Source of the DNA: Archaeoglobaceae archaeon
Lineage (GTDB): Archaea > Halobacteriota > Archaeoglobi > Archaeoglobales > Archaeoglobaceae
Direction of reading: 5' to 3'
DNA: 47,889 nucleotides
Assembly: GCA_026988525.1 (NCBI GenBank)
Contig: JALSLC010000025.1
Span: 1 to 47,889, forward strand
The translations under genes and the position numbers were made by a program. A model generated the notes under the pieces. The model was not told the origin of the DNA. It worked only from the letters and a program-made list of their open reading frames with translations, and searched no databases. Positions 3,072-39,664 of this stretch are shown here, in pieces (position 1 is the first letter of the stretch; the number at the start of each line of letters is the position of its first letter).

Positions 3072-3823
3072 GGATTAGAATCAGGGAGTTGGAGTTCGAA
3101 TACAACAGCATTCCCGCGTTAAAGGGTATTTCGATCGACATAGGGGAGGAGTTCGTGGCGATAGTCGGCCCGAACGGGAGCGGAAAGACTACTCTGCTGA
3201 AGTGCATGTGCAAGATACTAAAGCCCAAGAAGGGCGTCGTCATGCTGAATGGTAGGGATATCAACGATTTGAGCCAGATGGAGATCGCCAAAAGGATCGG
3301 CTACGTCCCTCAAAACGTAAGCGGAACATTTCCGGCGAAGGTTTTCGAGGTAGTCTTGACTGGCAGAAGGCCATACATAGGATGGAAATGTAGCAGAAAA
3401 GATTTGGAAAAGGCTTCGGAAGTTCTGAGGGTTTTGGGATTGGAAGAATTGGCGATGAGGGATTTCGATACGCTGAGCGGGGGACAACAGCAGAAGGTTT
3501 TGATTGCGAGGGCTTTGGCTCAGGAGGTCGAAATATTGCTACTCGACGAGCCCACCGCAAATTTAGATCTGAAACATCAGCTCGAAGTCATGGAACTTCT
3601 GAAAAGTTTAACGAGAAAAGGTGTAACTGTTATTACTGCAATACACGACCTAAACTTAGCCTCGATGTTCGCGGACAGAATCGTTATGATGAGGGACGGC
3701 GAGATCTTCGCGATCGGAACGCCAAAAGATGTAGTAACCTCGGATAACGTCAGAGCCGTTTACGGTGTCGAGGTTAGAGTTCTGGAAGTGGATGGAAATC
3801 GCATAGTAGTTCCGCTGGCATAA
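3065..3823 (+). CDS. ABC transporter ATP-binding protein, BtuD/FecE family
   Basis: The 252-residue ATPase drives the importer encoded just upstream. Visible motifs are Walker A GPNGSGKT (35-42), Q-loop near VPQNVSG, signature LSGGQQQ (137-143), Walker B ILLLDEP (157-163) and the switch histidine in AIHDLN. Start is TTG 3065 or the adjacent GTG 3068; both overlap the permease stop, which implies translational coupling. Together with 922-3071 it forms a complete binding protein-permease-ATPase set. The substrate is not readable from the ATPase. CobN follows 44 bases later and may belong to the same transcript. Confidence 0.93.
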   Translation: MVRIRIRELEFEYNSIPALKGISIDIGEEFVAIVGPNGSGKTTLLKCMCKILKPKKGVVMLNGRDINDLSQMEIAKRIGYVPQNVSGTFPAKVFEVVLTGRRPYIGWKCSRKDLEKASEVLRVLGLEELAMRDFDTLSGGQQQKVLIARALAQEVEILLLDEPTANLDLKHQLEVMELLKSLTRKGVTVITAIHDLNLASMFADRIVMMRDGEIFAIGTPKDVVTSDNVRAVYGVEVRVLEVDGNRIVVPLA

Positions 3824-3867
3824 ACCTAACACAAAGATTTTTGTTTCGAAGTCAAGATAAATTGATC

Positions 3868-6800
3868 ATGCGTTCTATGCTCATAATAGCTTGGAACTCC
3901 CAGCACATCCACCAAGCTGTGAAGGATCTGACCGAGGAAGCAATAAGTTTTAAAATAGATGTTTTAGACGTTCAGACTTTGAATAGAACGAACGAACTTC
4001 CAGATCTCTCGAAATACGATATAGTGGTGATCAATCAGATGGGGAGAGGAGATTGGGAAAAAGAAATCGTTGAAAAAGCTAAGGATAAGATTTTCATAGC
4101 GTTCAATTCGAGCGTTGACGAACATTCTAACGTATCGAAAAAAGATTACGAAACTCTGAAGAGATATCTGGCTTACGACGGATTGGAGAATCTGAAGAAC
4201 TTCGTTAAGTTCTGCATGCGGTTAATAGATAAAAGTGTGAATGTCGAAGATCCAAAGCCGATGCCTTGGAACGGTATATACCATCCGAAGGGTGGACTGT
4301 TCGAAAATCTGAGGGATTATTTGAAGTGGTACGAGTTGAACTATAGCGATCTCGTAGGTTTGCTTTTCTATAGGGCGAGGTTTCTGTTCAGGAATACGGC
4401 TCACATCGACATGTTGATAGAGGAGCTTGAGAGAAGGGATATAGGTGTAATTCCAGTCTTTACGCTCACGTTTCCGGATAAGGATTTAGGAGCACCGGGA
4501 GTGGATGAAGCGATAAGGAAATACTTCTTCATGAACGATCGGCCTATCATATCCTTACTAATCTGGGGATTATACTTCAAGGTCTGCGACGACTTGAAAA
4601 TCCTCAAGAAGTTGGACGTGCCCGTTATAAACGCTATAGAGATCTACGCAAAAAGTCCTGAGGAGTGGATGAAAGATCCGAAGGGATTAAATCCGGTCAT
4701 GGTTTCGTTTGCGGTAGCTCTTCCGGAATTCAACGGTGTGATAAATCCGACGGTGTTTTCGGGTGAGATCCGAACTCAAACCGTTCTGAAGTCCGTTCCA
4801 ATAGAGGAAAGAATTAGGAGAATCGTTGAGCAGGTGGAGAGATGGCTTAAGCTTAGGAGGATGAAGAATTCGGAAAAGAAGGTAGCAATAGTTCTGCACA
4901 TCTCGGACATAGGCAATACCGAAGCTAACGTGGGAACCGCCTTAGGTTTGGATACGTTCGAAAGCGTTGTGGAAATACTCAGAGCTATGAAAAAGGCTGG
5001 CTATGACGTCAAAAACATACCCAAAGACGGAAGGGAACTTGCCAAGATGTTTTTAGAGAATAAACAGATGTGGGAGGGGATATGGAACTACAGTCCGAAT
5101 TACGCTTTCAAGATTTCGAAGGAAATGTATGCAAGGTGGTTTGAGGAGTTGCCTGAAAGGATCAGAAAATCGATGCTCGAAACTTGGGGGGAATTCGATG
5201 ATGTAGGGATTCCGGGAATTTCGTTCGGAAACGTCCTCGTAACTGTTCAGCCTCCAAGGGCTAAAACTTTCGATCCTGAGGAATTTCACAAGCTGATACA
5301 CAATCCAACCTTACCTATCCCCCATTACTACTACGCATTCTACAGATTTCTCAATGAAAACTTCGATGCGGTAATTCATTTAGGTAAACACGGAAGCGTG
5401 GAGTGGTTACCCGGAAAGAGCGTAGGTTTGTCCGAAGAATGCTATCCGGACTTATGTCTGCGTAGCATCCCAAACGTTTACGTTTACATAGTCAACAACC
5501 CTGCAGAGGGAACTCAGGCGAAAAGGAGGGGGTATTCGACGATAATAGATCATCTCCCACCATCCATGAAGAGATCGAACCGCTACGAAGAACTCGAAAT
5601 AGCCCTAAACGAATACTTCAAAGCTGAGGAGAGGGGGCTGAAAGAACAGAGGGAGATTGCAAAAAGGAGGATCATCGAGCTTGCGAAGAAGCTCAACTTC
5701 GAATTCAAGGATTTGGAGGATTTGCACACCAGGATAGTTGAGCAAAACGAATCCCTTTACTGCTACAGCCTCCACGTGTTCGGCAGGATAGATGAATCCA
5801 CTCTTGATGACTTCGTGAATTCCATAGTCAAGCCCGAAAGGTTCGTGCTGAAGGAGATGGGTGTAGATTACGCCGAATACCTTAGAAATCCGTTTAAGGT
5901 CGTAAACGGATACACTTTAGGCGAGATCGTTAACTCGATCAGAGATGAGGACATTCCGGAATTCTTAAAGGATGCGATGGAAAAGGCAAAAGCCGAAATC
6001 GAAGAGATGCGAATGGAAGTAAGAAGGAGGATAATGAACATAAGGGAGATCGAAAATCTTTTGAGAGCCTTGGAGGGCAAATTTATCGAACCTGCCCCAT
6101 CCGGAGATGTGACGAGAGGAAGGATGGAGGTTATACCCACTGGATTCAATTTCTATTCGGTGGATCCGAGAGCCATTCCGTCGAAGAGCGCTTGGGAAGT
6201 TGGAAAGAAGTTGGCCGAACAGCTGATCGATAAAATGATGAAGGAGAACGGGAAATATCCCGAAACGATAGCGTTCGTCGAATGGAGTAGCGATCCCATG
6301 AATACGGATGGAGAGCAGATAGCGCAGATTCTCTACCTATTGGGTGTCGAGCCCGTTTGGGAAGGGGATAGGGTGGTTGGGCTGAGCGTGATTCCGCTCG
6401 AAGACCTCAAAAGGCCGAGAATAGACGTGATAGTTAGAATAAGCGGTCTCTTCAGAGATACATTCATGAACCTCGTGGAACTTATAGATACAGCTGTTGC
6501 AAAGGTTGCGGGCTTGGACGAACCTCCTGATATGAACTACGTCAGAAAGCACTATCTCGAAGGCTTGAGACACAGGATTTTTGGAGATAAGCCCGGAGCA
6601 TACGGGGCTGGTGTAAACCATGCTATAAACTCCTCACATTGGCAGAGCGAGGAAGAGCTTGCGGAGATATACATAAACTGGGGTTGCTACGCCTACGGAA
6701 AGGATGCGTTCGGTGTGGAAGCTAAGGAGGAATTTAAGCTCGGCCTTAAGAGAGTTGAGGCCGTCGTGAGAAATCATTACACCGACGAATGGGACATAAC

Positions 6801-7305
6801 GGACGACGACTGTCCATACGCATTCCAAGGAGGTTTGGCGTTAACGGTGGAGAAGTTGACCGGAAAGAGACCGAAAGTTCTCATAGGGGATACGAGGAAT
6901 CCAGAGTCAGCGAAGATTGTAGATGCAAAGGAGGAAATCGAGAGGGTTGTGAGAAAGACCCTACTGAACGACGACTGGATTGAGGGTATGAAGAGGCACG
7001 GATACAAGGGAGCTGGAGACATCATGAAGAAGATCGTAAACGTTTACGGATGGCAGGTAACGACGAAGGCCGTGAAGGATTGGATATTCGACGAGATCGC
7101 CGAGAGGTTCGTGCTCGATGATAATATGAGGGAGTGGTTTAAGGAGAACAACCCCTATGCCGTGGAAGAGATAGCGAGGAGACTGCTCGAGGCGTATAAG
7201 AGGGGACTGTGGAAGGCAAAAGATGAAACAATTGAGAAGCTTAAGGAAATATATGTAGATATTGATGGCTATCTCGAAGACGATAAATTAATTTTAAATA
7301 TTTGA
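3868..7305 (+). CDS. cobN: CobN/magnesium-chelatase subunit H family protein
   Basis: About 1145 residues, the expected size for CobN. In cobalamin synthesis this subunit binds the tetrapyrrole and receives cobalt with the help of AAA+ (CobS/ChlI-like) and VWA (CobT/ChlD-like) subunits. Diagnostic sequence is near residues 503-540: HLGKHGSVEWLPGK, then NVYVYIVNNPAEGTQAKRRG and DHLPP. A C-terminal half has EWSSDPMNTDGEQIAQ and GINHAINS-like stretches. I prefer ATG 3868 (or 3877) over the in-frame TTG at 3841 because MRSMLIIAWNS begins like a Rossmann strand. It is linked to the upstream BtuFCD importer. No AAA+ chelatase partner is visible in the high-GC flank. Archaea carry several CobN-like paralogues, so cobalt specificity is inferred. 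Confidence 0.87.
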   Translation: MRSMLIIAWNSQHIHQAVKDLTEEAISFKIDVLDVQTLNRTNELPDLSKYDIVVINQMGRGDWEKEIVEKAKDKIFIAFNSSVDEHSNVSKKDYETLKRYLAYDGLENLKNFVKFCMRLIDKSVNVEDPKPMPWNGIYHPKGGLFENLRDYLKWYELNYSDLVGLLFYRARFLFRNTAHIDMLIEELERRDIGVIPVFTLTFPDKDLGAPGVDEAIRKYFFMNDRPIISLLIWGLYFKVCDDLKILKKLDVPVINAIEIYAKSPEEWMKDPKGLNPVMVSFAVALPEFNGVINPTVFSGEIRTQTVLKSVPIEERIRRIVEQVERWLKLRRMKNSEKKVAIVLHISDIGNTEANVGTALGLDTFESVVEILRAMKKAGYDVKNIPKDGRELAKMFLENKQMWEGIWNYSPNYAFKISKEMYARWFEELPERIRKSMLETWGEFDDVGIPGISFGNVLVTVQPPRAKTFDPEEFHKLIHNPTLPIPHYYYAFYRFLNENFDAVIHLGKHGSVEWLPGKSVGLSEECYPDLCLRSIPNVYVYIVNNPAEGTQAKRRGYSTIIDHLPPSMKRSNRYEELEIALNEYFKAEERGLKEQREIAKRRIIELAKKLNFEFKDLEDLHTRIVEQNESLYCYSLHVFGRIDESTLDDFVNSIVKPERFVLKEMGVDYAEYLRNPFKVVNGYTLGEIVNSIRDEDIPEFLKDAMEKAKAEIEEMRMEVRRRIMNIREIENLLRALEGKFIEPAPSGDVTRGRMEVIPTGFNFYSVDPRAIPSKSAWEVGKKLAEQLIDKMMKENGKYPETIAFVEWSSDPMNTDGEQIAQILYLLGVEPVWEGDRVVGLSVIPLEDLKRPRIDVIVRISGLFRDTFMNLVELIDTAVAKVAGLDEPPDMNYVRKHYLEGLRHRIFGDKPGAYGAGVNHAINSSHWQSEEELAEIYINWGCYAYGKDAFGVEAKEEFKLGLKRVEAVVRNHYTDEWDITDDDCPYAFQGGLALTVEKLTGKRPKVLIGDTRNPESAKIVDAKEEIERVVRKTLLNDDWIEGMKRHGYKGAGDIMKKIVNVYGWQVTTKAVKDWIFDEIAERFVLDDNMREWFKENNPYAVEEIARRLLEAYKRGLWKAKDETIEKLKEIYVDIDGYLEDDKLILNI

Positions 7306-7321: not shown

Positions 7322-9865
7322 GTGGCTACGATAACTAAGGATTTAAAAAGATTGATTATGTTTATATTAATACTTTTGTCTATATCATTTTTATATTCGT
7401 TTGTATCAAATCTAAATTTTACAAATACCGGGTTGCCTGGAATAGTTGGAACTGGTGGATATAAAGGTAGTAGCAATCCTGTACACACAGTACCCTCAAG
7501 CTTTTCTCAATCAAACATGGCTAATTTAAGTGAAATGTCAAATTCAGCAAAAGTACCTATTTACTTTGTTGAAGGTCTAAACGACTACACTTATCTTATG
7601 AGGCTATATACTTCTGCCTTTTACGATGAAAAAACACATTCTTGGATAGAGGAAAAAACACAACCAAAAGAAATGTCGCCTCCCAGTTATTTTACAACTC
7701 GTTATAAAGTCACTCCAATTGTAGAATTCAAAAATCATATTCCAGTCTCTCAGAAAACAGTTTTTGTAACGATAAAGGCAAAATATTTTCCAGAAACTTC
7801 AACGTTCTATATAAAATCAGATAAAAAACCATACGTTGGTTATTCTCTTGCATCACCCCCAAGAGCTCTTTGGGCAGCAAAAGTACCAAAAGATAGTCCA
7901 TACTTACAAGTAACTTGCCCCGGAAAAGATAGAATCAGAGCTTTGGCTTTGAAGGTAACAAAAGGTGCAAAAAATGATTATGAAAAAGCTGAAAAAATAG
8001 CTGAATTCCTTGAAACCAACTATACTTATGGCTTTACAACTTATTCTGGAGATCCCATATATGACTTTTTATTTGTGAAAAAAGTTGGAGTTTGTAAGCA
8101 GTTTGCTTCAGCTTTTGTAATGATGTGTAGATCGATTGGATTGCCTGCAAGAATGGTTTTTGGATACATGGCAAGACCCGAACCGTACAATCAAACTGTG
8201 TTTTCTTCTCAAGCACATGCGTGGGCAGAGGTGAAATTTAAAACAGGGTGGGTTGAATTTGATCCAACACCTTCCCAGAAAAAAATACCTACAGAATGTA
8301 CAATAACAAACATTTCAAAGAAAATTTACGTTGGCGAAAATTTAAGTCTTAGCGGTATAGTAAAATCTGAAGATCCTAAGTTACAAAATTACGTTTCTGG
8401 TTATGTTGAAATATATCTCGCAAAAAACAAAAACGATAGAAAATCATACAAATTTTTGGGATTGTTTCCCGTAAAAGGTGGTATATTTCATGCAAGTATA
8501 AAAGTAAACAAAACAGGAAAATACAATGTTTTAGCACATTATACAGGTAGTTTTATGTTTTACGCTTCTTGGAGCGATCCTATTGTTGAAATTCTCGGAA
8601 AACCATACATAGAAACTAACATTGGTAGTAAAGTTTGTGCTGGAGTTTGTAAAATCAGAGGAAAAGTTGTTTATGCAAAACCAATAAACGGTACAATTTA
8701 TTTGTTTGTTGATGGAAAAGAGTATAGAGAAAATTTTAACACAACTTTCTCTTTCCAAGTTTATTTATCTCCGGGAAAGCACAAGATAAAAATATTCTAT
8801 CCCGGATCAAAAGAATACTTTATAAGTCCAGTTAGCTGGGAAAGGGAAGTTGAAGCGGGATACGTTAAAGTTATTTTTTCGAATACTACAGCGGTTGTAG
8901 GAGAATATTGGATATCAAATGTTACAGTTCTGTTTAATGGTAAAGCTATAGAAGAAACCGTATATCTTGGATATCCGTTTTACGTTAATGTAAGTCACTT
9001 CATAAAAGTTATGAGTCCTAAACAAGAAGGAATATACGCTGTAAACTATTCTGTTCTATCTCTTGGCTATAATAGTGTTTTGAGGTTGTATGTTAAATCA
9101 CCAACTAAAATAAAAGCTGAAATAAATGGTAATACTCTGATTATTAGAGTTTTTGATAAAAATGGAAATATTGTAAAAGGAACTGTATATATCAATGGCA
9201 AGAAGTACTACGACCCCGGCACACTTAAAATAAAAGTAAAAAAAGATAAATTCGAAATATACTATGCGGGAGATGATATTCACTTTCCTTCAAAAATAGT
9301 GGTTACAAAACCTCTGCCAATTTGGATATACTTAATACCTTTACCTCTAATATTTTTATTGGCTTTAAAATTCAGGAAAAAGAGAACCCTTAGATTTGAA
9401 TACATGCCTCCTCCAGTATGGTTGCCCGAAAATGAAATCTCAATAAAAGCTACGGGGGAAGGGTTGGTTAGATTGAGTTTAAATGGTGAAAAAGTTGGTT
9501 TTGGTAAGAATGAGTGCACTTTTAAAGGAAAACTACCTATAGGTACTCACGAACTTTTAGCTGAAGTTTTAAATGAAAAAGGAAAAGTTTTAGAAAAGAA
9601 AAGTATGAAAATTCACGTGCTACCTTTTAGAAGGGCAATAGCAAAAATTTTCGAAGATGTTTTAGAGTTGTGTAAAAATAAAGGTTTGGATGTACAAAGC
9701 ACTACTGTTAGGGAGATAATGCAGTTTTTGAAAATTGAGGATGAATTAAAAAAAGAAATTCTGTCATTTTTTGAGCCTAAGAGATATGGGAAAGATTTTG
9801 GTAATAGGGAAGACTTAATCAAATTTTACGAATTGTGCAGAAGAGTTAGGAGGTGTCTTAGGTGA
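7322..9865 (+). CDS. Membrane-anchored transglutaminase-like protein
   Basis: The 847-residue protein has an N-terminal membrane segment (about 12-30) and a transglutaminase/papain-like core with the catalytic triad C258 (VGVCKQFA), H299 (AHAWAEV) and D314 (FDPTP). Several Ig-like beta domains follow (about 330-650), then a membrane segment near residue 665 followed by a basic KFRKKR stop, and a cytoplasmic C-terminal helical domain resembling the tail of TgpA/DUF4129 proteins. GTG 7322 is chosen because it keeps basic residues ahead of the first helix; ATG 7358 is possible. It opens a five-gene operon with MoxR and DUF58. Such sets are thought to act in envelope protein maturation, but the substrate is unknown. 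Base composition drops sharply here relative to the preceding gene. Confidence 0.85.
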   Translation: MATITKDLKRLIMFILILLSISFLYSFVSNLNFTNTGLPGIVGTGGYKGSSNPVHTVPSSFSQSNMANLSEMSNSAKVPIYFVEGLNDYTYLMRLYTSAFYDEKTHSWIEEKTQPKEMSPPSYFTTRYKVTPIVEFKNHIPVSQKTVFVTIKAKYFPETSTFYIKSDKKPYVGYSLASPPRALWAAKVPKDSPYLQVTCPGKDRIRALALKVTKGAKNDYEKAEKIAEFLETNYTYGFTTYSGDPIYDFLFVKKVGVCKQFASAFVMMCRSIGLPARMVFGYMARPEPYNQTVFSSQAHAWAEVKFKTGWVEFDPTPSQKKIPTECTITNISKKIYVGENLSLSGIVKSEDPKLQNYVSGYVEIYLAKNKNDRKSYKFLGLFPVKGGIFHASIKVNKTGKYNVLAHYTGSFMFYASWSDPIVEILGKPYIETNIGSKVCAGVCKIRGKVVYAKPINGTIYLFVDGKEYRENFNTTFSFQVYLSPGKHKIKIFYPGSKEYFISPVSWEREVEAGYVKVIFSNTTAVVGEYWISNVTVLFNGKAIEETVYLGYPFYVNVSHFIKVMSPKQEGIYAVNYSVLSLGYNSVLRLYVKSPTKIKAEINGNTLIIRVFDKNGNIVKGTVYINGKKYYDPGTLKIKVKKDKFEIYYAGDDIHFPSKIVVTKPLPIWIYLIPLPLIFLLALKFRKKRTLRFEYMPPPVWLPENEISIKATGEGLVRLSLNGEKVGFGKNECTFKGKLPIGTHELLAEVLNEKGKVLEKKSMKIHVLPFRRAIAKIFEDVLELCKNKGLDVQSTTVREIMQFLKIEDELKKEILSFFEPKRYGKDFGNREDLIKFYELCRRVRRCLR

Positions 9866-10839
9866 TTTCAATACTAACTTTAACTCTAATATTTGCAGCA
9901 ATTTATTGGATAGTAACTCATCAAACAGTTTACTTTGGTAAAGAGTTGGTGATAATTTCTACTGAAAACCTCGCAACTATATATATATTACTTTTAGCGG
10001 GAATACTGTCAAGAGGAAAACTGAAGTTTCTAAGACCATTTTTTGTTGCTTTAGCAATGTATCTGATTTCTAACTTGGTAATATTTAATCTACAAATGTA
10101 CTATCCAATCTCAGTAAACAGAATATTTCTCTTCATTTTTTTGATTTCAATAGCGATAGTAGTTTCGGATTTGCCAAAAAGACACATTACTTCATTTATT
10201 GGATTTTTACTTACTGCTATATCCTTATATATGCTTTTAGTCCAATATAATTCAACTTTGGCAATAGCAATAGCAGCATTTCTCGTTTATTTAGGAATAA
10301 CTGCATTGGCGTCTGGATTTGAAGGAATTATAGCGAAAGGTATCGCCTCTTCAAGAACTTATGTAGTATTAGCTTTAATAGGTCTTGCAATTCTCGAATT
10401 TGCAAGACCATATTTAAAAGGAGGATTGTTTGATTTTGCTGAATGGATTGTAGTAGCCCTTGCTGCTTTTTCAATTTTTAGAAATTTCAAGCCAGAGTAC
10501 GATGAAAGATATCTAAGTGAACATGTTAGCAGTGTTTCAAAATTAATAGACGAGTTATCTATGAATCTCGATAGAGCTGCAGACTTATTTGTCAAAAAAG
10601 GTGAAAAATCTATGCTCGTAACTTACTTGGTAAAAATTCTATTGGATTCTGGATACAAAGAAAAGGAAATTGCATCTAAAATATTGCCTATAGTCAACCA
10701 CTGTGATGAAAAAGTTTCAATTCTATCTTTTCCATGGGAAAGAGCTTTGATTGAGGGGAGAAATAGAAAGAAAAGAGAGAAAATTTTGAAAATAGTTATG
10801 AAATCTATTAAGGGAGGGGATAAAAATGAACGTTCGTGA
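9862..10839 (+). CDS. Polytopic membrane protein of the transglutaminase/MoxR operon
   Basis: I do not recognise a named family. The 325-residue protein has about eight hydrophobic helices over residues 1-210, then a soluble, charged, helical C-terminal region (about 215-325). The GTG start overlaps the upstream stop by four bases (gtga), and the end overlaps MoxR by 14 bases, so it is translationally coupled on both sides. The position suggests a membrane partner for the transglutaminase and DUF58 proteins. The cytoplasmic tail could be where the MoxR ATPase docks; that is inference from order only. Confidence 0.75.
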   Translation: MISILTLTLIFAAIYWIVTHQTVYFGKELVIISTENLATIYILLLAGILSRGKLKFLRPFFVALAMYLISNLVIFNLQMYYPISVNRIFLFIFLISIAIVVSDLPKRHITSFIGFLLTAISLYMLLVQYNSTLAIAIAAFLVYLGITALASGFEGIIAKGIASSRTYVVLALIGLAILEFARPYLKGGLFDFAEWIVVALAAFSIFRNFKPEYDERYLSEHVSSVSKLIDELSMNLDRAADLFVKKGEKSMLVTYLVKILLDSGYKEKEIASKILPIVNHCDEKVSILSFPWERALIEGRNRKKREKILKIVMKSIKGGDKNERS

Positions 10840-11806
10840 ATTTATGAGGTTGTGTGACAGCATAGTTAAAACAGTCTGTGATGTTTATGTGGGAGATAGT
10901 TTAATCGTTAAAAAAATGCTTGCAGCTTGTTTAAGTAATGGAAACGTTCTTTTTGAAGATTATCCGGGACTGGGTAAGACTCTCTTAGCAAAGGTCTTTG
11001 CGAAATCCATAGGCGCTGAATACAACAGAATTCAATTTACACCAGATTTACTCCCCGCAGATATAACTGGTACTAAGGTTTACAGAGGTGGGGAATTTGA
11101 GTTAATCAAAGGCCCAATTTTTACACATGTGTTACTGGCAGATGAAATAAATAGAAGTCCTCCAAAAACTCAATCAGCTTTACTTGAAGCGATGGAAGAA
11201 AAGCAAGTTACAATAGAGGGTGAAACACATACATTGGAATTACCGTTCTTCGTTATAGCCACTCAAAATCCGGTAGAGCAGGAGGGTACTTATCCATTAC
11301 CTGAAGCTCAGCTTGATAGATTTATGTTAAGACTATGCCCGGGATATCCAAGTAGTGTAGAAGAGGAAATGGAAATTCTAAGTAGAAGAATTGAATGGAT
11401 GAAAGATGATCCAACAGAAGATATATCTCCATGTGTAACTATTTCTGAATTTAGGGCAATGCAGGAATTTGTAGAATCATCAATTTACGTCAGTAAAAGT
11501 ATATTGAGATATATATCTGAGCTTGTTAGGGCTACAAGAAAGCACGAATACGTAGATGTAGGTTCAAGTCCAAGAGGTGGTTTAGCTTTGCTTAAAGTAA
11601 CAAGAGCTATAGCTGCGATGGATGGTAGAGATTATGTAGTTCCGGATGATGTTAAGCTCGTTGCAGTAGATGCTTTAGCTCACAGGATAATTCTAAAAGT
11701 TGAAAGAGCTGTAGAAGGAATTAGACCAGAAGTAGTTGTAGAGGATGTTCTCAAAGAAGTAGAGGTGCCAAAAGGTGATGAGGAAGGCAGGGGCTTCTCT
11801 CGTTAA
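10826..11806 (+). CDS. MoxR-family AAA+ ATPase
   Basis: The 326-residue ATPase has Walker A in EDYPGLGKT (about 44-52), Walker B in HVLLADEINR (101-110), the MoxR signature PPKTQSALLEAMEE, sensor ATQNPVEQEGTYPLPEAQLDRF-type region split around residues 148-170, and an arginine-containing SSPRGGLAL sensor-2 segment. MoxR proteins act as chaperone-like ATPases and are usually paired with DUF58 or VWA proteins, as here. ATG 10826 follows a gggagggg Shine-Dalgarno stretch. It overlaps both neighbours, which places it inside one operon. Confidence 0.93.
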   Translation: MNVREFMRLCDSIVKTVCDVYVGDSLIVKKMLAACLSNGNVLFEDYPGLGKTLLAKVFAKSIGAEYNRIQFTPDLLPADITGTKVYRGGEFELIKGPIFTHVLLADEINRSPPKTQSALLEAMEEKQVTIEGETHTLELPFFVIATQNPVEQEGTYPLPEAQLDRFMLRLCPGYPSSVEEEMEILSRRIEWMKDDPTEDISPCVTISEFRAMQEFVESSIYVSKSILRYISELVRATRKHEYVDVGSSPRGGLALLKVTRAIAAMDGRDYVVPDDVKLVAVDALAHRIILKVERAVEGIRPEVVVEDVLKEVEVPKGDEEGRGFSR

Positions 11807-12953
11807 ACTCATAGTATATTTGGTACTATTCGGATTGTTCTTAACTTCCCCAGAACTAATAAAATTAGCTATAATTCCTGCAATACTTTTGGTATTGCCT
11901 TTTGGTGTTAAAGTTAGAGTATTAAAAGAAGAATGGGATGAAAAAACTATTGTAGGTGGAAATTTTTCAGTTAATATACTAATAGATGTTGTAGGATTAG
12001 GTGTTTTGAGAATTAGGCACGATTTACCTGAATTTTTTGAAGTTGAGAATGGATCAAATTTTGCTGAGTGCATTGTTATTGGGAGAAGAGTTGTTAAACT
12101 TAAATATACTGCTAAAGCTACTAAAAGGGGGATATACAAGCTAAAAGATTTAGAATACGAAGTAGAGAGTCTTTCAAAGACATTCGTTAAGAGAGGTGTA
12201 ACAAACAGCTCTGTTACGGTAGAAGTAAAACACAGAATTCCAAAAATTAGAAAAATAAAAGAAGTAAGGGGTAGGGCAAAATCACCAATACCTGGAATAG
12301 ATATAGCGAAAATAGGAGTTCCCGGTACAGATTTTAGAGAAATAAGAGAGTACTTGCCTGGGGACTCTATGAAATTTGTTAATTGGAAAGCTACTGCCAG
12401 AAGAAATAAATTAATGGTAAATCAATATGAAGTAGAGGGTAAAAAGGCTGTGTGGATTTTTCTCGATTCCAACCCATACATGTTACATGGTACAAGTGTA
12501 AAAAATTACCTTGAATCTGCAATAGAAGTTGCAAATGCTTTGGCATATTACTACACATTTAGGGGTCACAAGGTAGGATTATACATTGTAGGTGATGGTA
12601 GAATATTTCATCCGGATGTGGGTAGTAGGCAGTTTAGAAGAATTAGTAAAGCACTACTTGAAGTTGAGGGAGGTAGAGAAAGTTTTGAAGAAGCTGTAGA
12701 AAAATGTAAGAAATTTTTATTGCTTTACAAACCTCTGGTAGTTGTTATAACGAGAGTTGAAAGAGTAAAATTGGACAATTTAATTAAATTATCTAAGGTA
12801 ATGCCAGTTCAGGTTATATCTCTAAAGGGATTGTATGAAGAAAGCTTTTCTGGAATTGTTATGGAGGCTGTAAGAAGGAGAGCTGTTACTTTACTTAGAA
12901 GTTGTGGTAACTGCGTTGAAGTGGATGTAAACAAATCGATAGTGTGGTGGTAA
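11778..12953 (+). CDS. DUF58 domain membrane protein
   Basis: The 391-residue protein begins with two hydrophobic segments (about residues 5-45). It then has a beta-rich region and the DUF58 core around residues 182-210 (GTDFREIREYLPGDSMKFVNWKA), followed by a VWA-like segment beginning VWIFLDSNPYM. DUF58 proteins resemble VWA domains and work with MoxR ATPases. ATG 11778 is preceded by an aaagg motif; a GTG at 11775 is directly adjacent. The gene overlaps MoxR by 29 bases, so the two are coupled. The lack of a complete MIDAS (DxSxS appears as DSN) suggests the VWA-like fold may not bind metal in the usual way. Confidence 0.88.
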   Translation: MRKAGASLVKLIVYLVLFGLFLTSPELIKLAIIPAILLVLPFGVKVRVLKEEWDEKTIVGGNFSVNILIDVVGLGVLRIRHDLPEFFEVENGSNFAECIVIGRRVVKLKYTAKATKRGIYKLKDLEYEVESLSKTFVKRGVTNSSVTVEVKHRIPKIRKIKEVRGRAKSPIPGIDIAKIGVPGTDFREIREYLPGDSMKFVNWKATARRNKLMVNQYEVEGKKAVWIFLDSNPYMLHGTSVKNYLESAIEVANALAYYYTFRGHKVGLYIVGDGRIFHPDVGSRQFRRISKALLEVEGGRESFEEAVEKCKKFLLLYKPLVVVITRVERVKLDNLIKLSKVMPVQVISLKGLYEESFSGIVMEAVRRRAVTLLRSCGNCVEVDVNKSIVWW

Positions 12954-12954
12954 A

Positions 12955-13479
12955 ATGAAGGAAAGTTGGAAACTAATAAGTCTTATATCGGCGGAAGTAT
13001 CGTTTTTACTTACATTAATGACGTATTCATCCTCATCTCTCTCTTATATTGTGAATCCCTTGTTTTTACTACCTTTATCTATAGTACCTCTACTCAGATG
13101 GAACAAAAATCCATTTAGTTTTGAATTTTTGACGATTCTATTGGCAATATACATACCAGAGATATTTCCATCTACTCCACTTTACACGTCCTTTATAAAT
13201 GCGATATACTTTGCTGGATTTGACAATGTAGCTAGGTATATCCATTCAATATTAGTTCCTCAACCTACACCTATATTACCTCTGGTTATAGCTTTATTCT
13301 GTTTTTCTCAAATGATAGAGAGAGAAAAAATACAGTACGTTGGAGTGGCTTTGTTATTATCTTTGACATCGTATCTTATATATCCGTTTTTGTTGCTATC
13401 TCTTAAATCCAGCTTTCTGTTGGCATTCTTGGCAGTTGGAATTTTGGCTATAGCGTGTTGGATGCTAAAATTGGATTAA
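12955..13479 (+). CDS. Small polytopic membrane protein ending the transglutaminase operon
   Basis: Unrecognised 174-residue protein with about five hydrophobic helices and few charged residues. It starts one base after the DUF58 stop, at ATG 12955, behind a gtggtgg purine-rich stretch. It closes the five-gene run 7322-13479 and meets the oppositely directed IorB-like gene 14 bases later. A role in the same envelope complex is inferred only from position. Confidence 0.75.
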   Translation: MKESWKLISLISAEVSFLLTLMTYSSSSLSYIVNPLFLLPLSIVPLLRWNKNPFSFEFLTILLAIYIPEIFPSTPLYTSFINAIYFAGFDNVARYIHSILVPQPTPILPLVIALFCFSQMIEREKIQYVGVALLLSLTSYLIYPFLLLSLKSSFLLAFLAVGILAIACWMLKLD

Positions 13480-22187: not shown

Positions 22188-23504
22188 TTATATTATAGTA
22201 TCCTGTCCACTTGGCTCAGATTGAATATCAAATCCTATAAATCCTTCATGACACCACTTACATGATGTTGCTGCATGAACTGCTGCTTCATGGCAAGCCA
22301 TGCAAACATCACCATGATACATTCTGCTATAGTTTGCAGTTTGATTTAACATGTTTTCGTGTCCTATTGCTATATACAAAGTGCTACCTCCTCCTCCACC
22401 GGGCAACCAGCCATAAGTGGCTATAACAGTGTAAGGATCGTAAGGTGTTCCATTTCCGTGGCAGGTAAGACACGATACCTTCTCAGCACAATGCACTTTA
22501 GTTGAATTAATTTCTATTGCTGCGGGGTATAAATTGTAAGTTGTATTGGCAGTAGGATTGTTAATAGCATAGCGATATAGATTGTGACATTCATCGCAGT
22601 AGCTGTTGTTTATCCAAGAGACGTTGAGAGTTGTTACACTCGTAGCCAATGCGTGGTATCTCGGATTGCCCCAGAGGTTTGTGGTATTCCATGCATTGTA
22701 AATCGGGGCATGAGTACCATTTATAAGCCCTAAATAAATATTTTCGTGGCAAGACGAACAATTTATTTTATTTAGTGGAATAAATTCGTGCATACCATTA
22801 AAGTTTGAGGGTGGGTTTATAGTTATGTTCGCATACCTCGTTCCATTTGGCGTAAAACTCGTAAAAGTATAGTAGTAGAGAGTATAGCTCAAATCATACT
22901 GATATTTAAACACCATATGCTTCGAAATGTTAGTGTGGCACATTAAACAAGCTAAGTTCTCGTCGCCTTTCTTTTCAAAGTAAGCTACCATCGCTTTATG
23001 TGCTGCAAAGTAGGGTATTGATGAGATAACAGTGACGTTGTGATTGTTAACAGTCTGAGTTACGTTAAAAGCTTTGGCTGGAGGAGCATGTACTAACTTC
23101 CCAAATCTGTTTACAACCCAAACACCATTACCTCCATGGCAGTCTAAGCAACTTGGAACGTAAGCTGCATGGGTTTGTATTCCGGGATGTGCACCAGTAC
23201 TATTTATAACTGCAAATTTTATTCCAGTACCATTAAATCTATGGCAAGTTTCACAACTTAGATCGTAGTGTGGTGAGCTTGGATTGGAATACAACTCCTC
23301 CCATATATGGTAGTGACAAAGTTTACAGTATTCTGTCTGCCCATTTGCTGTTGTAACGTTAATAACACCTGTCGTAGGATTTGTTGAAAAGTTGTACATT
23401 GTGTGAGTTCCTACAAAAAGTGATGTGGAATGAGGAGAATAAATTAGGAACAATGCGGTAATAGCTATACCAATTAGTGTTAAAGCTAAGAGTTTTGTTG
23501 TCAT
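22188..23504 (-). CDS. Exported nine-haem c-type cytochrome
   Basis: The 438-residue protein has an N-terminal hydrophobic segment (about 4-22) and nine CxxCH sites, starting at C60, C84, C119, C186, C249, C303, C345, C401 and C415. It is rich in Asn/Thr glycosylation-like sites and lacks a C-terminal membrane helix. It is therefore a surface or pseudoperiplasmic electron carrier, probably linked to extracellular or membrane-bound electron transfer. The N-terminal about 125 residues align with the smaller cytochrome upstream (SLFVGTH / SLFAGQH, three early haem sites), showing paralogy. Its ATG overlaps the upstream stop by four bases. The redox partner is unknown. Confidence 0.92.
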   Translation of the reverse strand: MTTKLLALTLIGIAITALFLIYSPHSTSLFVGTHTMYNFSTNPTTGVINVTTANGQTEYCKLCHYHIWEELYSNPSSPHYDLSCETCHRFNGTGIKFAVINSTGAHPGIQTHAAYVPSCLDCHGGNGVWVVNRFGKLVHAPPAKAFNVTQTVNNHNVTVISSIPYFAAHKAMVAYFEKKGDENLACLMCHTNISKHMVFKYQYDLSYTLYYYTFTSFTPNGTRYANITINPPSNFNGMHEFIPLNKINCSSCHENIYLGLINGTHAPIYNAWNTTNLWGNPRYHALATSVTTLNVSWINNSYCDECHNLYRYAINNPTANTTYNLYPAAIEINSTKVHCAEKVSCLTCHGNGTPYDPYTVIATYGWLPGGGGGSTLYIAIGHENMLNQTANYSRMYHGDVCMACHEAAVHAATSCKWCHEGFIGFDIQSEPSGQDTII

Positions 23505-24190
23505 GGTTTCACCTCCGTAATATTGGTGTAACCAAAACTATCAGATGTAACGTTAATGTACGACTCGTTTAAACCTGTTAATGAGTAATAGCCCAATATT
23601 ACATGATCAGTAGATATGTTAATCCACTTATATACATGAAAGTTTATCGTGATGTTTACCTTCATGTGACAGGCTACACAAGCTTCAGTCGAGTCTCTGA
23701 GTGTATTATTTTTTATTGCATTTGCCACAAATGAGTTGTGAGCTGAACACATACCAGTAAACGTAAGATTGGAATATCTATAATTAGACTTTACACCAAA
23801 AGCAGTTATATTAAATGTACCAGCAAATGGGCCGGGCATAGAACTGTTTAAGGATGCATTTATTTGATGGCACAGCATACAAGCTACAGTTGTAGCAGCA
23901 TGAGCTTGCTTTCCCGGTTGGTAGTCCGTTATTTTTCCGTTCTTCACTTCTGCGTAAGTTATACTCAAGTTCGCTCTATGGCAGGCGCAACCCATATTTT
24001 TGTGATAGCTATCTTTCAATTCTTCATAAACATCGGCATGACATTTCTGGCATGGGACTTGATTTCCATTCCCACTTATGTTGTACCACCAGTGCTGCCC
24101 GGCGAAAAGCGAAGCTGTTTGAGGCATTACAAGCATACCAACTGCAAAAATTACGATGGTTAGTAGTATAACTTTTGCAATATTGCTCAT
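23501..24190 (-). CDS. Exported small multihaem cytochrome with one atypical CxCH site
   Basis: The 229-residue protein has an N-terminal hydrophobic segment (about 7-25) and canonical haem sites at C47 (CQKCH), C104 (CMLCH) and C171 (CVACH). A fourth site is at C68, where the sequence is CACH, one residue short of CxxCH; the paralogue has CETCH in the aligned place. The count of three or four haems, small size and Asn/Thr-rich surface recall the tetrahaem subunits reported to build cytochrome filaments in Archaeoglobus veneficus and Pyrobaculum; this is only a resemblance. It is the first gene of the cytochrome pair, and the ATG is 95 bases from the divergent gene at 24286. Confidence 0.88.
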   Translation of the reverse strand: MSNIAKVILLTIVIFAVGMLVMPQTASLFAGQHWWYNISGNGNQVPCQKCHADVYEELKDSYHKNMGCACHRANLSITYAEVKNGKITDYQPGKQAHAATTVACMLCHQINASLNSSMPGPFAGTFNITAFGVKSNYRYSNLTFTGMCSAHNSFVANAIKNNTLRDSTEACVACHMKVNITINFHVYKWINISTDHVILGYYSLTGLNESYINVTSDSFGYTNITEVKP

Positions 24191-35390: not shown

Positions 35391-36215
35391 TTAGCTTTCG
35401 TAACTATTTGCACAAGCCACGAATTCCATATCAATGTTTCCAGTATAGTTTCCAACAGGTAGGGGTACGGGTCTTTTTAATTCAAAAGAAACATCAATTT
35501 TACTCTTAGAGGGTATTTCAACAATTTCAATGTAATTGTTACTGAGTGCTTTTCCATTACAACTAAGGTATTCAGGTGAAAAAGATTCATTTTCGTTTAC
35601 AAATCTATTTGCTTTAATAAGAAGTTTTAAACTCATTCCAACATTATCTGGATCAAGATTTTCAATTGTAACTTTTTTAGTTGAGGTTTCTCCTGGCGCT
35701 CCTTTACCAAAGTCTATTGACTCTGGTACTATGTTAACTCCAACAGCAGGATTTAAAAATAGACTTCCTACGGTCTTCTCGCTCTCCAATCCATGTGCAT
35801 CAACTACTTTAATTTTTAGAATATATTTTCCATAATCCTTAGATTTAACGAGATATGAACCTTCACTTACAACTTTGCACTTTCCAACTTCAACTATTTT
35901 TAAATTCACAGTTTTTGTATCATTGGTGTTATAAATAATCGCATGTACAGAGGAAATGTCCTTACCACCATTCATATCATTAGCTTCTACTTTAAATATT
36001 ATCTTTTCACCAGTAAATGCGAACATAACTTTACCTTTATGAGCAATTACCTGTACATTTTGTACTGTTGGTTTTACATTTTTTGATTCGCACGTTGAGT
36101 TCAAACTAACTTTTAAATTTGATTTTCCGGTAATACTTAGAGGTTTGGCATTTGTAGTCCCAACAGCTGAAATTAATACTAATATCAAAACCAAAGCACA
36201 CTTCTTAGAGTGCAT
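35391..36215 (-). CDS. Exported beta-rich protein, paralogue of 37105-38064
   Basis: Unrecognised family. The 274-residue protein has a signal peptide (about 1-23, TTNA-K) and no C-terminal membrane helix. It aligns end to end with the protein at 37105-38064: TVQNV near the N-terminus, FTGEKIIFKVEANDMNG, YGKYILKIKVVDAHGLE, SLFLNPAVGVNI, IDFGKGAPGETSTKKVTIENLDPDNVG and a final GNYTGNIDMEFVA. The FGxxxPGxT...N.DPDN region looks like a beta-sandwich strand pair found in many surface proteins, including camelysin/TasA-like fibre proteins. It is the last gene of the one-directional exported cluster. A secreted structural or filament subunit is a guess. Confidence 0.7.
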   Translation of the reverse strand: MHSKKCALVLILVLISAVGTTNAKPLSITGKSNLKVSLNSTCESKNVKPTVQNVQVIAHKGKVMFAFTGEKIIFKVEANDMNGGKDISSVHAIIYNTNDTKTVNLKIVEVGKCKVVSEGSYLVKSKDYGKYILKIKVVDAHGLESEKTVGSLFLNPAVGVNIVPESIDFGKGAPGETSTKKVTIENLDPDNVGMSLKLLIKANRFVNENESFSPEYLSCNGKALSNNYIEIVEIPSKSKIDVSFELKRPVPLPVGNYTGNIDMEFVACANSYES

Positions 36216-36312
36216 ATTACAGTTATAATTTTTAGAATATTTAAATTCTATGTATTTAAAGAACTTATTTTAGATAATTATTATTTGTATTTAAAAATAA
36301 AAATTAGTATAA

Positions 36313-36486
36313 TTAGATTATAACTGAGACTGGTATTGTTACAACACTCGCTGGATGTAATGCCCAAATGAAGTACATAATATAATATAGTGGCATCTCT
36401 GCATCGAAGCCAGTATATGCCATTGCTGGTGCCATTGAAATTACTATTGCTAATAAACTTGCCAATATTGGGAGTTTCAATTTCAT
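36313..36486 (-). CDS. 57-residue exported hydrophobic peptide
   Basis: A short gene of 57 codons with a signal peptide (MKLKLPILASLLAIVISMAP, cut site near AMA-Y) and a short hydrophobic mature part of about 34 residues, including YYIMYFIWALHPASVV and ending PVSVII. Support comes from a textbook aaggaggtg Shine-Dalgarno sequence seven bases before ATG 36486, a clean frame, and placement in line with the exported genes on either side. I recognise no family. It could be a pilus-like or membrane-inserting subunit, a pheromone-like peptide, or an assembly factor; none is shown. Confidence 0.65.
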   Translation of the reverse strand: MKLKLPILASLLAIVISMAPAMAYTGFDAEMPLYYIMYFIWALHPASVVTIPVSVII

Positions 36487-36557
36487 GTCTTACACCTCCT
36501 TCAATTTTTAAAAGTATTATTTTTTATATTATATATATTTTTTGGTATTTAAAAAAA

Positions 36558-37070
36558 TTATAACTTTCTCTTGAGAAGTAAAGCTAAAACTATTGCTATA
36601 AGGCAGTATATTGTAAAGAATCCGGGGATACTATTTCTAGCTTTTCCAACAGTTTTTATTTCGACACTAACTGGAAAAGCTATAGAAGTCTTTAAATATG
36701 AGCCTCCTTTTGAATTTGTGCCTATTTTTTCAAATTTAACAATTATACTACCGTTGTATGATCCAGCTTTTTTAATATTGAATGTTAAATTTACACTACT
36801 CTTAGCTCCTGCATTTAAGCTAAAATTATTCTTAGAGAATACAACATTTACATTCTCGCTATTGTTTATGTCTCCTTGGGGTTTTAGAGTTATTTTAACT
36901 GGATAATTGTTTGTGTTGTATATTCTTAAATCTACAGTAACTTTCTTGGGCAAATCACTTGCATTTACTTTAACTGCAATTTTTGGTGGGGTAATTGCAC
37001 CTCCAAACCCGTAAACTGGGTGAATTAAAGCAATAAGTATAATTGCTAATATAAAATATATTTTTTTCAT
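36558..37070 (-). CDS. Exported protein with PGF-CTERM-like C-terminal anchor
   Basis: The 170-residue protein has a signal peptide (MKKIYFILAIILIALIHPVYG) and one Ig-like beta domain (about 22-140, with VTVDLRIYNTNNYPVKITL and AGAKSSVNLTFNI). It ends in IPGFFTIYCLIAIVLALLLKRKL-like sequence: PGF, a hydrophobic helix and basic residues, as in archaeosortase substrates. The domain resembles NEW/CARDB-type surface modules. ATG 37070 is chosen because a gaggtg Shine-Dalgarno lies just before it; the frame also has a GTG at 37079 inside that motif. It lies 34 bases downstream of the 319-residue exported protein and could anchor it at the surface. Confidence 0.75.
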   Translation of the reverse strand: MKKIYFILAIILIALIHPVYGFGGAITPPKIAVKVNASDLPKKVTVDLRIYNTNNYPVKITLKPQGDINNSENVNVVFSKNNFSLNAGAKSSVNLTFNIKKAGSYNGSIIVKFEKIGTNSKGGSYLKTSIAFPVSVEIKTVGKARNSIPGFFTIYCLIAIVLALLLKRKL

Positions 37071-37104
37071 TACGTTCACCTCAAAAAATTAAAATTTAAA
37101 AAAT

Positions 37105-38064
37105 TTAAATTCCTACAGCATATATTGTAGCAGATCCGGAGTACGTTCCACTTACAAGTGGTGATGGTACGTTTAAGTACATATCGAACATCAATGCATT
37201 ACTTTGACCTGGCTTAAGGAAATCAAACAACGTTATTTGAGCAGAACTACTCATAGTTACATTGTAATCGTAAGTTATACCATTCGCCTGTATTATATGT
37301 GCTCTCATGTTACTTGCTGGTATTTGTCCTCCACCATTCTGATTTGTCAAATCTGTTGTGGAGATACCAACTATAACTTTTAGACCAACATTGTCCGGAT
37401 CAGTATTATTCACGACTATTGGGCTTTCTTGAGCCATAACATTTGTATCTCCCGGATTAACGTTTCCGAACGTTATACTTGTTGTATTGGCATCTATACC
37501 TACTGCAGGATTTAAGAATATCTTTCCGACACAAATAGTGTTATCATCTGCTGCTAAGCTGTGTTCATCGGCAGCCATTATATAGATATAATACAATCCA
37601 TATTGGTTACCAACAGTCCAATCCTTCTGAAATGTTAAGTTGTATTGGTCACCATCACCAACTGTTGAAGGGTTGTATCCTGCTTGTAGTATAATTTCAT
37701 TTCCATTGCCAACATATGGGTAATCTGGATCTAAGACTACTTTAACATCTCCGTTGTCTAAGTCTCCTTCACCGTTTTGATCACTTACATTTATTTTGAA
37801 GTATACTCCTTCACCATAAAAGGCGTAAGGTACTGTTGCATTAGTTCTAATTAAACCTGGTGCTGCAAGTCCTCCAACTACTTCGTAAACTTTATAATTT
37901 TGTACTGTATATATTTGCATTACAAATGTGTTATTATGTATATAAGGTTCTACATTTTGTACTGTTGTTGTAACAGAAGTTTGTTGCTGTGTTACTGCAC
38001 CAAAAACGGGCATACTAAGTAGAGATACTAGTACGCAAACCAAAATAAACACTTTTTTATCCAT
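37105..38064 (-). CDS. Exported beta-rich protein, first structural gene of the cluster
   Basis: Unrecognised 319-residue secreted protein with a signal peptide (about 1-22, VFG-A). It has a Gln/Thr-rich start, an Asp/Gly-rich segment (about 100-135, SDQNGEGDLDNGD) that could bind calcium, and a C-terminal beta region with IFLNPAVG, ITFGNVNPGDT and NNTDPDNVG. The end, SGTYSGSATIYAVGI, has no anchor. It is the full-length paralogue of 35391-36215. ATG 38064 has an agaggtg Shine-Dalgarno and an AT-rich 240-base upstream region. Low charge, many Asn/Thr sites and the extracellular features suggest a cell-surface or fibre protein. Confidence 0.72.
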   Translation of the reverse strand: MDKKVFILVCVLVSLLSMPVFGAVTQQQTSVTTTVQNVEPYIHNNTFVMQIYTVQNYKVYEVVGGLAAPGLIRTNATVPYAFYGEGVYFKINVSDQNGEGDLDNGDVKVVLDPDYPYVGNGNEIILQAGYNPSTVGDGDQYNLTFQKDWTVGNQYGLYYIYIMAADEHSLAADDNTICVGKIFLNPAVGIDANTTSITFGNVNPGDTNVMAQESPIVVNNTDPDNVGLKVIVGISTTDLTNQNGGGQIPASNMRAHIIQANGITYDYNVTMSSSAQITLFDFLKPGQSNALMFDMYLNVPSPLVSGTYSGSATIYAVGI

Positions 38065-38306
38065 CGCTTAGCACCTCTAATACAACTAAATTTTTATTTA
38101 ATTTAATTTTTTTGAATTAAATAAAATTAATATATTTATTTCTGAATATAAATTTCTACAAACAGTTTTTAAATATGGTTACCTATAATAATCAGTTTTA
38201 ATAACTTTTTGTACATGCTGGGATACAAATATAACTAATGTTAATACTTTAAAATTAAAATAAATAATAAAAATGAAAAGTATAGCAGAATTAAATTAAA
38301 ATAAAG
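38065..38306. other. AT-rich non-coding gap upstream of the exported cluster
   Basis: No open reading frame with a start and Shine-Dalgarno is seen in these 242 bases. The sequence is more than 75 % AT, with several TATA-like stretches on the minus strand (aaatttatattc and aaatatattaattt, about 38125-38160). These would suit a promoter with a leader for the exported genes. No inverted repeat long enough to call an operator was found. Confidence 0.5.
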
Positions 38307-38555
38307 CTAAGAAATTAAATATTCTTCATCTATGTGTAATAGCAAATTTACTAACTTTAGGCCCTTTTCTGTAATTGAATATTTATCATTAAATCTAATA
38401 ATTAAACCATTGTTTTCAAGATAATTTAGAACTTCAAGACCTTTATTAAAATTAAGATTTGATCTTTTTATTATTTCTGTTTTACTCATATCTTTTTTAG
38501 TAAGTAACTCAAGAATTTCCTTCACTATTTCAATCCAACACCTTCTTAATCTCAT
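38307..38555 (-). CDS. Winged-helix DNA-binding protein
   Basis: The 82-residue protein shows an archaeal wHTH pattern: EILELLTKKDMSKTEIIKRSNLNFNKGLEVLNYLENNGLI (helices 1-3), then FNDKYSITEKGLKLVNLL (wing and terminal helix). This is similar to the HTH_45 group. I choose ATG 38555 (MRLRRCW); the open frame runs back to 38618 through very AT-rich sequence. It is 240 bases upstream of, and in line with, the exported-protein cluster, so it is the obvious candidate regulator of it, by position only. Confidence 0.7.
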   Translation of the reverse strand: MRLRRCWIEIVKEILELLTKKDMSKTEIIKRSNLNFNKGLEVLNYLENNGLIIRFNDKYSITEKGLKLVNLLLHIDEEYLIS

Positions 38556-38770
38556 AAAGATATATAAAAAATCTATAATATAAATTATTTTCGATTTTTT
38601 AATTGTATATTTTATCATAATCGTTATGATAGTAAGATATCGTAAAATTAAATTATAATTTATATATAAAAAATAAATTTAAATATTTAAATTTAAAAAA
38701 ATCAACAAGCAAATTAAAAGCTGTTGGCAAAAACGTTAATGTTTTATCGTAATCTATTTTTTTCTGAAAC

Positions 38771-39664
38771 ATGATGGTTGGGGGAGTAGAAATAGAGGAC
38801 ACGTTTTGTGAGGTTTTTGATGTTTATGTATCAAGAGTTGTAATTACAGCTTACAACAGAAACTTAGCTAAAATTGCTGCAAACGAAATGAGTGGTTTTG
38901 CGACATCTGTTATAATGTGTCCTGTTGAAGCTGGGATTGAGAGACACCTAAGTGCTGATGAAACACCAGATGGACGGGCTGGTGTAAGTGTTCTTTTATG
39001 CCATCCTTCCAAGAAAACACTACAAAGACAACTAATCGAAAGAATTGGACAATGTGTTTTAACAGCACCAACTGCAAATGCTTACGACGGATTAAAAGAA
39101 GAAAAAGATAGATTTGATGCAGGTAATAAGCTTAGATATTTTGGAGATGGATACGAAAAGCTAATAGAAGTGCAAGGAAGGAAATGTTGGTCTATACCAA
39201 TAATGGAGGGGGAATTTATAGTTGAAAACGATTTTGGAATTGCTAAGGGTGTTGCAGGAGGTAATATTTTTATAATGGGTGAAAATCAAGCTTCAGCTTT
39301 AAATGCAGCTATTGCTGCAGTTGATGCTATAAGAGATATGGAAGGTGTAATAACGCCTTTTCCCGGTGGAATTGTGGCTTCCGGATCTAAGGTTGGTAGT
39401 AAAAAATATAAATTTTTAAAGGCAACCACAAACGAAAGTTTTGTTCCCGCTTTAAGAAACGTAGTTGAATCAAAAGTTCCAGAGAATGTTGAAGCTATAT
39501 ATGAAATAGTTGTAAATGGTTTAGATCTCGAATGTGTAAAAAATGCTTTAAAAAAGTGTATTCTTGCAGCTACTAAGATTAAAGGCGTGGTAAAAATTTC
39601 TGCAGGAAATTATGACGGAAAATTGGGCAAACATAAAATATATTTAAAAGAATTATTCATATAA
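38771..39664 (+). CDS. ftr: Formylmethanofuran--tetrahydromethanopterin formyltransferase
   Basis: The 297-residue Ftr moves the formyl group between methanofuran and tetrahydromethanopterin. Seen are VGGVEIEDTFCEVFDV, TSVIMCPVEAGIE, ETPDGRAGVSV, RIGQCVLTAPTANAYDG, GEFIVENDFGIAKGVAGGNIFIMGE and TPFPGGIVASGSKVGSKKY. In Archaeoglobus it runs oxidatively towards CO2. ATG 38771 or the next ATG 38774 start it; atgttttatcg about 26 bases upstream may be the TATA box. It is 5 kb from fwdCA and alone in its unit. Confidence 0.96.
   Translation: MMVGGVEIEDTFCEVFDVYVSRVVITAYNRNLAKIAANEMSGFATSVIMCPVEAGIERHLSADETPDGRAGVSVLLCHPSKKTLQRQLIERIGQCVLTAPTANAYDGLKEEKDRFDAGNKLRYFGDGYEKLIEVQGRKCWSIPIMEGEFIVENDFGIAKGVAGGNIFIMGENQASALNAAIAAVDAIRDMEGVITPFPGGIVASGSKVGSKKYKFLKATTNESFVPALRNVVESKVPENVEAIYEIVVNGLDLECVKNALKKCILAATKIKGVVKISAGNYDGKLGKHKIYLKELFI

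Follow-up and report, generated by a model that had tools for sequence, protein, structure and literature searches.

A five-gene archaeal cluster encoding secreted beta-sandwich proteins that appear one strand short and a predicted PapD-like anchored partner

Usher-less fibres with strand-complemented subunits exist in the form of the archaeal threads and of TasA and the archaeal bundling pili (ABP) (PMC9715654, PMC9674648), and no definite chaperone or usher has been assigned in the thread gene cluster (PMC9715654). WxL clusters typically encode an immunoglobulin (Ig)-type protein with a C-terminal transmembrane domain and two secreted proteins that carry a special domain at their C-terminus, and AlphaFold2 predicts that a strand of WxLIP fills a gap in WxL (PMC10599100). 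Here, we analyze a cluster located at positions 35391-38555 of a 47,889-nucleotide stretch of an Archaeoglobaceae archaeon (contig JALSLC010000025.1), hereafter the window. The cluster contains five open reading frames (ORFs), all on the minus strand, which encode, in order of transcription, a winged helix-turn-helix (wHTH) regulator, a secreted subunit (S1), an anchored partner (A), a small exported peptide (p57) and a second secreted subunit (S2). These co-directional genes and their order, already described in an earlier reading of the sequence (the original prediction), are seen in the window and again, for all five genes, in a related species of the same genus (the sister species).

Relation of the secreted subunits to the anchored partner

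Profile comparison indicates that the second domain of the secreted subunits (S domain 2) is homologous to the ectodomain of A. The hhalign alignment of both had a probability of 91.9% and an E of 7e-7, and five column-shuffled controls reached 0.1% or less. S domain 2 appears to stop one strand short, right after the equivalent of strand F: since the alignment breaks off where S itself finishes (A residue 115) and A continues with a loop, strand G (residues 129-141) and a transmembrane segment, S is read as being devoid of strand G. Strand G of A (36648..36686, minus strand) carries the motif phi-x-phi-P-x-x-phi-x-I, which is absent from S and present in most A relatives. Fourteen of the 16 proteins of the S family end 8-9 residues after the sequence GxYxG, and the remaining two at 14-15 residues; in a wider and noisier set obtained with the S profile, the distance from this motif to the C-terminus is 7-15 residues in most of the proteins that carry it, and the several exceptions are divergent or multidomain proteins.

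S1 (37105..38064, minus strand) has 319 amino acid residues with a signal peptide, two beta-sandwich domains and a net charge of -18. Its AlphaFold2 model, based on 16 aligned sequences, has a mean predicted local distance difference test (pLDDT) value of 86.6 and shows beta-sandwich domains at residues ~41-184 and 190-318. Domain 1 (37510..37944, minus strand) is Ig/cadherin-like, and its nearest relatives by sequence profile are GspB-type adhesin domains, with a weak match (E 0.003). Domain 2 (37108..37509, minus strand) is the PapD/ASH-type sandwich homologous to A. In this otherwise confident model, residues 18-40 are poorly resolved; they include an N-terminal extension (residues 23-40; 37945..37998, minus strand; pLDDT about 50-67), which is a candidate donor strand and is 79% identical between the sister species, in comparison with 45-50% in the next 40 residues. 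Foldseek searches against solved structures gave weak tandem-sandwich matches with S1, such as the C-domains of antigen I/II (E 1e-5, template modelling score about 0.33) and RbmA. Altogether, the folds are ordinary beta-sandwich types, yet S appears to be short of one strand.

S2 (35391..36215, minus strand) has 274 residues and a net charge of +3, and evolves faster (50% identity to the sister species). Like S1, it consists of an Ig-like and then a PapD/ASH-type beta-sandwich domain. S1 and S2 are paralogues, as had been proposed, with 35% identity over 170 residues (E 7e-15). The motifs said to be shared by both proteins are positionally homologous with the exception of TVQNV. When the family is aligned, TVQNV-EP of S1 stands opposite ESKNV-KP of S2, and the TVQNV of S2 is found further along, out of register with that of S1. 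According to their visible signal peptides, both proteins are predicted to be exported by Sec.

Protein A (36558..37070, minus strand) has 170 residues, counted from a conserved ATG, and contains a signal peptide, one PapD-like domain and a C-terminal transmembrane helix with a PGF tripeptide. The AlphaFold2 model (pLDDT 84.5) shows the signal peptide, a single sandwich and the transmembrane helix. Its best Foldseek matches were a ciliary central-pair protein, Caf1M (E 2e-7), CEP192 and FimC (about 5e-6), with a probability of 1.00 for Caf1M and FimC, and E values for the pilus chaperones Caf1M, FimC and PapD and for ASH domains ranged between 1e-7 and 1e-5. On the basis of the model and these matches, the ectodomain of A is predicted to belong to the PapD-like superfamily. 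At its C-terminus, the PGF tripeptide is followed by the transmembrane helix and a basic tail, and an archaeosortase ArtA is encoded in the host genome (E 3.5e-66). Curated PGF-CTERM models gave no match to A, and the PGF-CTERM anchor named in the original prediction is best described as putative.

The peptide p57 (36313..36486, minus strand) is an exported hydrophobic peptide of 57 residues restricted to this species and its sister species, whose orthologues share 57% identity and show codon-position bias. No credible relative was found in 393 genomes, where the weak matches had E values >0.002 and two of them contained stops; p57 was therefore ruled out as part of the conserved core, and it might be a lineage-specific accessory peptide. 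Its C-terminal strand (36316-36342, minus strand) reads VTIPVSVII, and VTIPIFMTI in the sister peptide, and agrees with the motif of A strand G. This agreement is not significant, as 7-11% of composition shuffles match the A motif equally, and p57 as a strand-G mimic is retained as no more than an idea.

Gene organization, transcription signals and distribution

The host genome has 1.43 Mb and is 99.8% complete. The cluster is flanked by two genes, one on the plus strand encoding ABCE1 and the other a protein which, on reading its sequence, we take to be formylmethanofuran:tetrahydromethanopterin formyltransferase (Ftr). The sister species, an Archaeoglobaceae archaeon of the same genus (L006, JALSQI010000031.1), has all five genes arranged and oriented identically, again between ABCE1 and Ftr; this adjacency of ABCE1 and Ftr was not found in the other Archaeoglobaceae checked. 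Amino acid identities between both species are 70% for S1, 66-68% for A, 57-63% for p57, 57-63% for the wHTH protein and 50% for S2, and substitutions are biased to the third codon position in all five genes, p57 included. Because of this conservation and codon-position bias, all five genes, including that of the 57-residue p57, are considered real. The AT-rich setting noticed previously was reproduced, with a G+C content (GC) of 0.301 in the cluster versus 0.364 in the whole window, the lowest 1-kb bin being 38001-39000 (0.244).

The wHTH regulator (38307..38555, minus strand) is an 82-residue protein of the HTH_45 type (Pfam PF14947, E 1e-15) with a conserved start, its orthologue in the sister species beginning at the same ATG. 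A wHTH of the same type is found at seven of the examined S/A loci (the window, L006, L036, L044, L081, L085 and L086), and it would probably be a local regulator of the cluster. By direct reading, Shine-Dalgarno-like sites (GAGGTG/GGAGGTG) precede S1, A and p57, and none is found upstream of S2. Upstream of S2 there is a TATA-like box, TTTAAATAT (36237..36245, minus strand), whose centre lies ~26 nucleotides before the S2 ATG, and a similar box is present in the sister species. The missing Shine-Dalgarno-like site together with this box suggests that S2 has its own leaderless transcript, and the five genes are probably not a single operon.

The five-gene set was found in two of six genomes of the genus, and a divergent S and A pair in one further Archaeoglobaceae genus (L027). 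S matches are present in 17 of 393 genomes drawn from the phylum and in 23 of 58 genomes of the class of ANME-1 (anaerobic methanotrophic archaea, Methanophagales). The carriers include a metagenome-assembled genome (MAG) of Methanococci, whose protein shows 42% identity to S1, Methanophagales (ANME-1; JAFNKG010000056.1) and ANME-2c. A maximum-likelihood tree groups the S1 pair with the Methanococci protein (98/97), separate from the S2 pair (100/100), and thus the split between S1 and S2 predates the two sister species. The 42% identity across phyla suggests a transfer of S among vent archaea. A viral origin of S was rejected, since a pattern scan of 2.9 million viral contigs gave no S relative and the BFVD matches were of generic Ig type.

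The A-profile search of 18 genomes found 19 distinct strong ORFs (E up to 1e-20), and for 18 of them an S match is no more than a few kb away; this linkage was counted by hand and holds for this subfamily only, as the profile was derived from A genes located beside S. S2 proteins gathered by an iterative A profile, and an unrelated ORF gathered by a profile of p57, were regarded as drift, and cleaner alignments were used instead. The genes proved to be conserved together, which favors the original prediction: S and A pairs recur in ANME-1, ANME-2c, the Methanococci MAG and a few Archaeoglobaceae, and p57 accompanies them in the sister species only. In ANME-1-class genomes, exported giant proteins of 1187-1294 residues adjoin S/A (L048:645-4493, L049:1278-5162 and L043:6256-9819) and may be additional components. 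Furthermore, two loci of this class (L081 and L085) show a second S/A subtype with S proteins ending in GTYYVQIAN-, a distinct A, several S copies and their own wHTH.

Elsewhere in the window, positions 1-7300 have a GC of 0.44-0.49 versus 0.30-0.39 in the remainder, and may have been acquired as an island or result from the joining of contigs; this region contains genes for ABC uptake, for a PGF-CTERM protein and for a 1154-residue protein that appears CobN-like by sequence. The region 7322-13479, on the plus strand, encodes a transglutaminase-core/Ig/transmembrane protein followed by what appear by sequence to be proteins of the MoxR ATPase and DUF58 types, and resembles an export-linked surface-protein operon. 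Two overlapping genes for exported multihaem-type cytochromes, with weak matches to cytochrome c7/c3, are located at 22188-24190 of the minus strand.

Proposed mechanism and rival explanations

An incomplete sandwich, an N-terminal strand and an adjacent PapD-like partner are together the anatomy of strand-complemented subunits, and each of these pieces is ordinary by itself. We tentatively favor, with somewhat less than even confidence, that the cluster encodes a strand-complemented fibre or lattice rooted by A at the archaeal cell surface. The gap of S domain 2 would be filled by a strand of another chain. In the first step, A would serve at the surface as a tethered chaperone or nucleator and as anchor, comparable to FimC, TapA or WxLIP; S1 subunits would next chain via their N-terminal extension into a thread-like fibre or lattice, membrane-rooted by A, and the faster evolving S2 might be a tip, cap or minor subunit. 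The scheme is favored by the homology of S domain 2 with the A ectodomain, the fixed S C-terminus, the structural match of A to pilus chaperones and ASH domains, the conserved and hydrophobically alternating N-terminal extension, the linkage of the S and A genes, the opposite charges of S1 and A in both Archaeoglobaceae species and the existence of usher-less strand-complemented fibres (PMC9715654, PMC9674648). The export signals, the anchoring layout, this homology, the truncated C-terminus and the gene linkage are observed, whereas strand donation, be it by A, by S or by the two together, polymerization and the roles of S2, p57 and the regulator are what we infer. The exported beta-rich subunits with an anchored partner, which the original prediction had read from the sequence, are borne out by the signal peptides, the beta-sandwich models of S1 and A and the transmembrane helix of A. 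Its proposal of a surface fibre or coat holds in part: apparently strand-short S proteins beside a PapD-like anchored A, in a conserved set, are consistent with it, and the comparison with TasA/camelysin suggested there gave no detectable relation by Pfam, PDB sequences or the 50 best Foldseek matches. A wider formulation, which we consider unlikely, would be an undescribed, pilus-like and usher-less archaeal system of ANME-1, ANME-2c, Archaeoglobaceae and vent Methanococci, in which the PapD-like A would chaperone and root subunits devoid of strand G, and p57 would be a free capping strand.

Several observations weigh against the strand-complemented fibre or lattice. The chaperone-type PapD-like fold of A was found at the level of a broad superfamily only, ASH/MSP domains matching equally; PapD_N (PF00345) was not among the Pfam matches of A up to E 10 or of its relatives up to E 1, and profile homology of A to FimC was rejected, with a null hhalign result (0.3%). 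The 50 best Foldseek matches of S1 included no pilin, TasA, bundling-pilus, thread or S-layer protein and were weak and generic beta-sandwiches, and AlphaFold2 models S domain 2 confidently as a monomer even without the missing strand. The alternating hydrophobicity of the S N-terminal extension in 16 proteins (none of 20000 shuffles equally extreme, and 0.00075 when the conserved V is left out) comes from a test that leaves alignment bias uncorrected. Finally, the net charges of S1 (-18) and A (+8 to +10) are opposite in both Archaeoglobaceae species, and charge complementarity was discarded as a general rule, since both members of the ANME pairs are acidic.

These data have also to be read in terms of a non-polymerizing complex such as that of WxL and WxLIP, in which A would anchor one or two S proteins by strand donation and S domain 1 would be an adhesin or ligand head. 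We regard it as somewhat unlikely. The gene inventory equals that of a typical WxL cluster, for which the WxLIP-WxL strand insertion is likewise an AlphaFold2 prediction (PMC10599100). The weak GspB-like match of S domain 1 (E 0.003) also points in this direction, as do weak matches to WxLIP_PGBD in S domain 2 (E 0.01-0.25), which are part of the scattered, mostly sub-threshold PF06030 matches of ANME-1 genomes; PF06030 gave no match in the window genome. On the other hand, membership of the WxL family by sequence was rejected, as 10 genomes searched for PF13731 up to an E of 1 gave no match, with a control match in Lactococcus, and the conserved N-terminal extension of S is left unexplained by such a complex alone. 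Furthermore, the WxL target is peptidoglycan, which is not expected in these archaea.

Ig, CARDB or NEW3 domains are often present in the surface proteins of these archaea, and S could consist of ordinary S-layer-associated or adhesive Ig modules without strand complementation, A being a separate anchored Ig protein. The common beta-sandwich folds, the weak and generic structural matches of S and the weak Ig/CARDB/NEW3-type matches seen in relatives are in agreement with this explanation, which is nevertheless decidedly unlikely: unrelated modules would not be expected to show a fixed S C-terminus one strand short or the tight linkage between S and A. Secreted beta-sandwich subunits and a possible N-terminal donor strand, as in TasA, would also fit true membership of the TasA/camelysin or bundling pilus families; however, no Pfam match to M73/camelysin and no TasA/ABP match among PDB sequences or the 50 best Foldseek structures was obtained, and the two-domain architecture differs, which makes it highly improbable.

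If the strand-complemented fibre or lattice is true, the conserved pair of incomplete S and PapD-like partner would be a candidate for the missing assembly factor of archaeal donor-strand fibres. The presence of S/A in ANME archaea would then bear on the surfaces of methane-oxidizing consortia and on how partners are held. The gene set is defined and amenable to structure prediction and expression.

Comparison with known systems

The cluster is not claimed as a member of any known family, although the WxL/WxLIP clusters and the archaeal threads are close to it in their way of working. The papers searched described no counterpart, and the original prediction had recognised none. Like the WxL/WxLIP clusters of Firmicutes (PMC10599100, PMC9772566), it combines an Ig-type transmembrane partner with a pair of secreted proteins whose C-terminal domain is a beta-sandwich; unlike them, A of the window has a single domain instead of DUF916 and DUF3324. 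With the chaperone-usher systems (FimC/FimA and Caf1M/Caf1) it shares the fold of A, which is that of the first chaperone domain, and an S domain 2 that appears to end after strand F as a pilin does; it differs in that A is membrane-anchored and without the second chaperone domain, and in that neither PapD_N nor pilins were matched by sequence. Archaea of this group are expected to be devoid of an outer membrane and hence of an usher.

The threads Saci_0406/Saci_0405 of Sulfolobus (PMC9715654) consist of Sec-secreted Ig-type subunits with an acceptor groove and an N-terminal tail, encoded as two paralogues in a conserved neighbourhood without an usher, a layout that the window cluster appears to share. 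Their subunit has one head domain and belongs to Crenarchaea (PMC9715654), whereas S has two domains and the window cluster contains a PapD-like anchored protein; the thread protein (arCOG10215) was not among the PDB sequence matches of S or its 50 best folds. The two-domain S and the lack of a SipW-type peptidase gene in the window cluster separate it from TasA/TapA, but it resembles TasA/TapA and the bundling pili in that those donor-strand fibres have a dedicated accessory or nucleating protein in their operon (PMC9674648).

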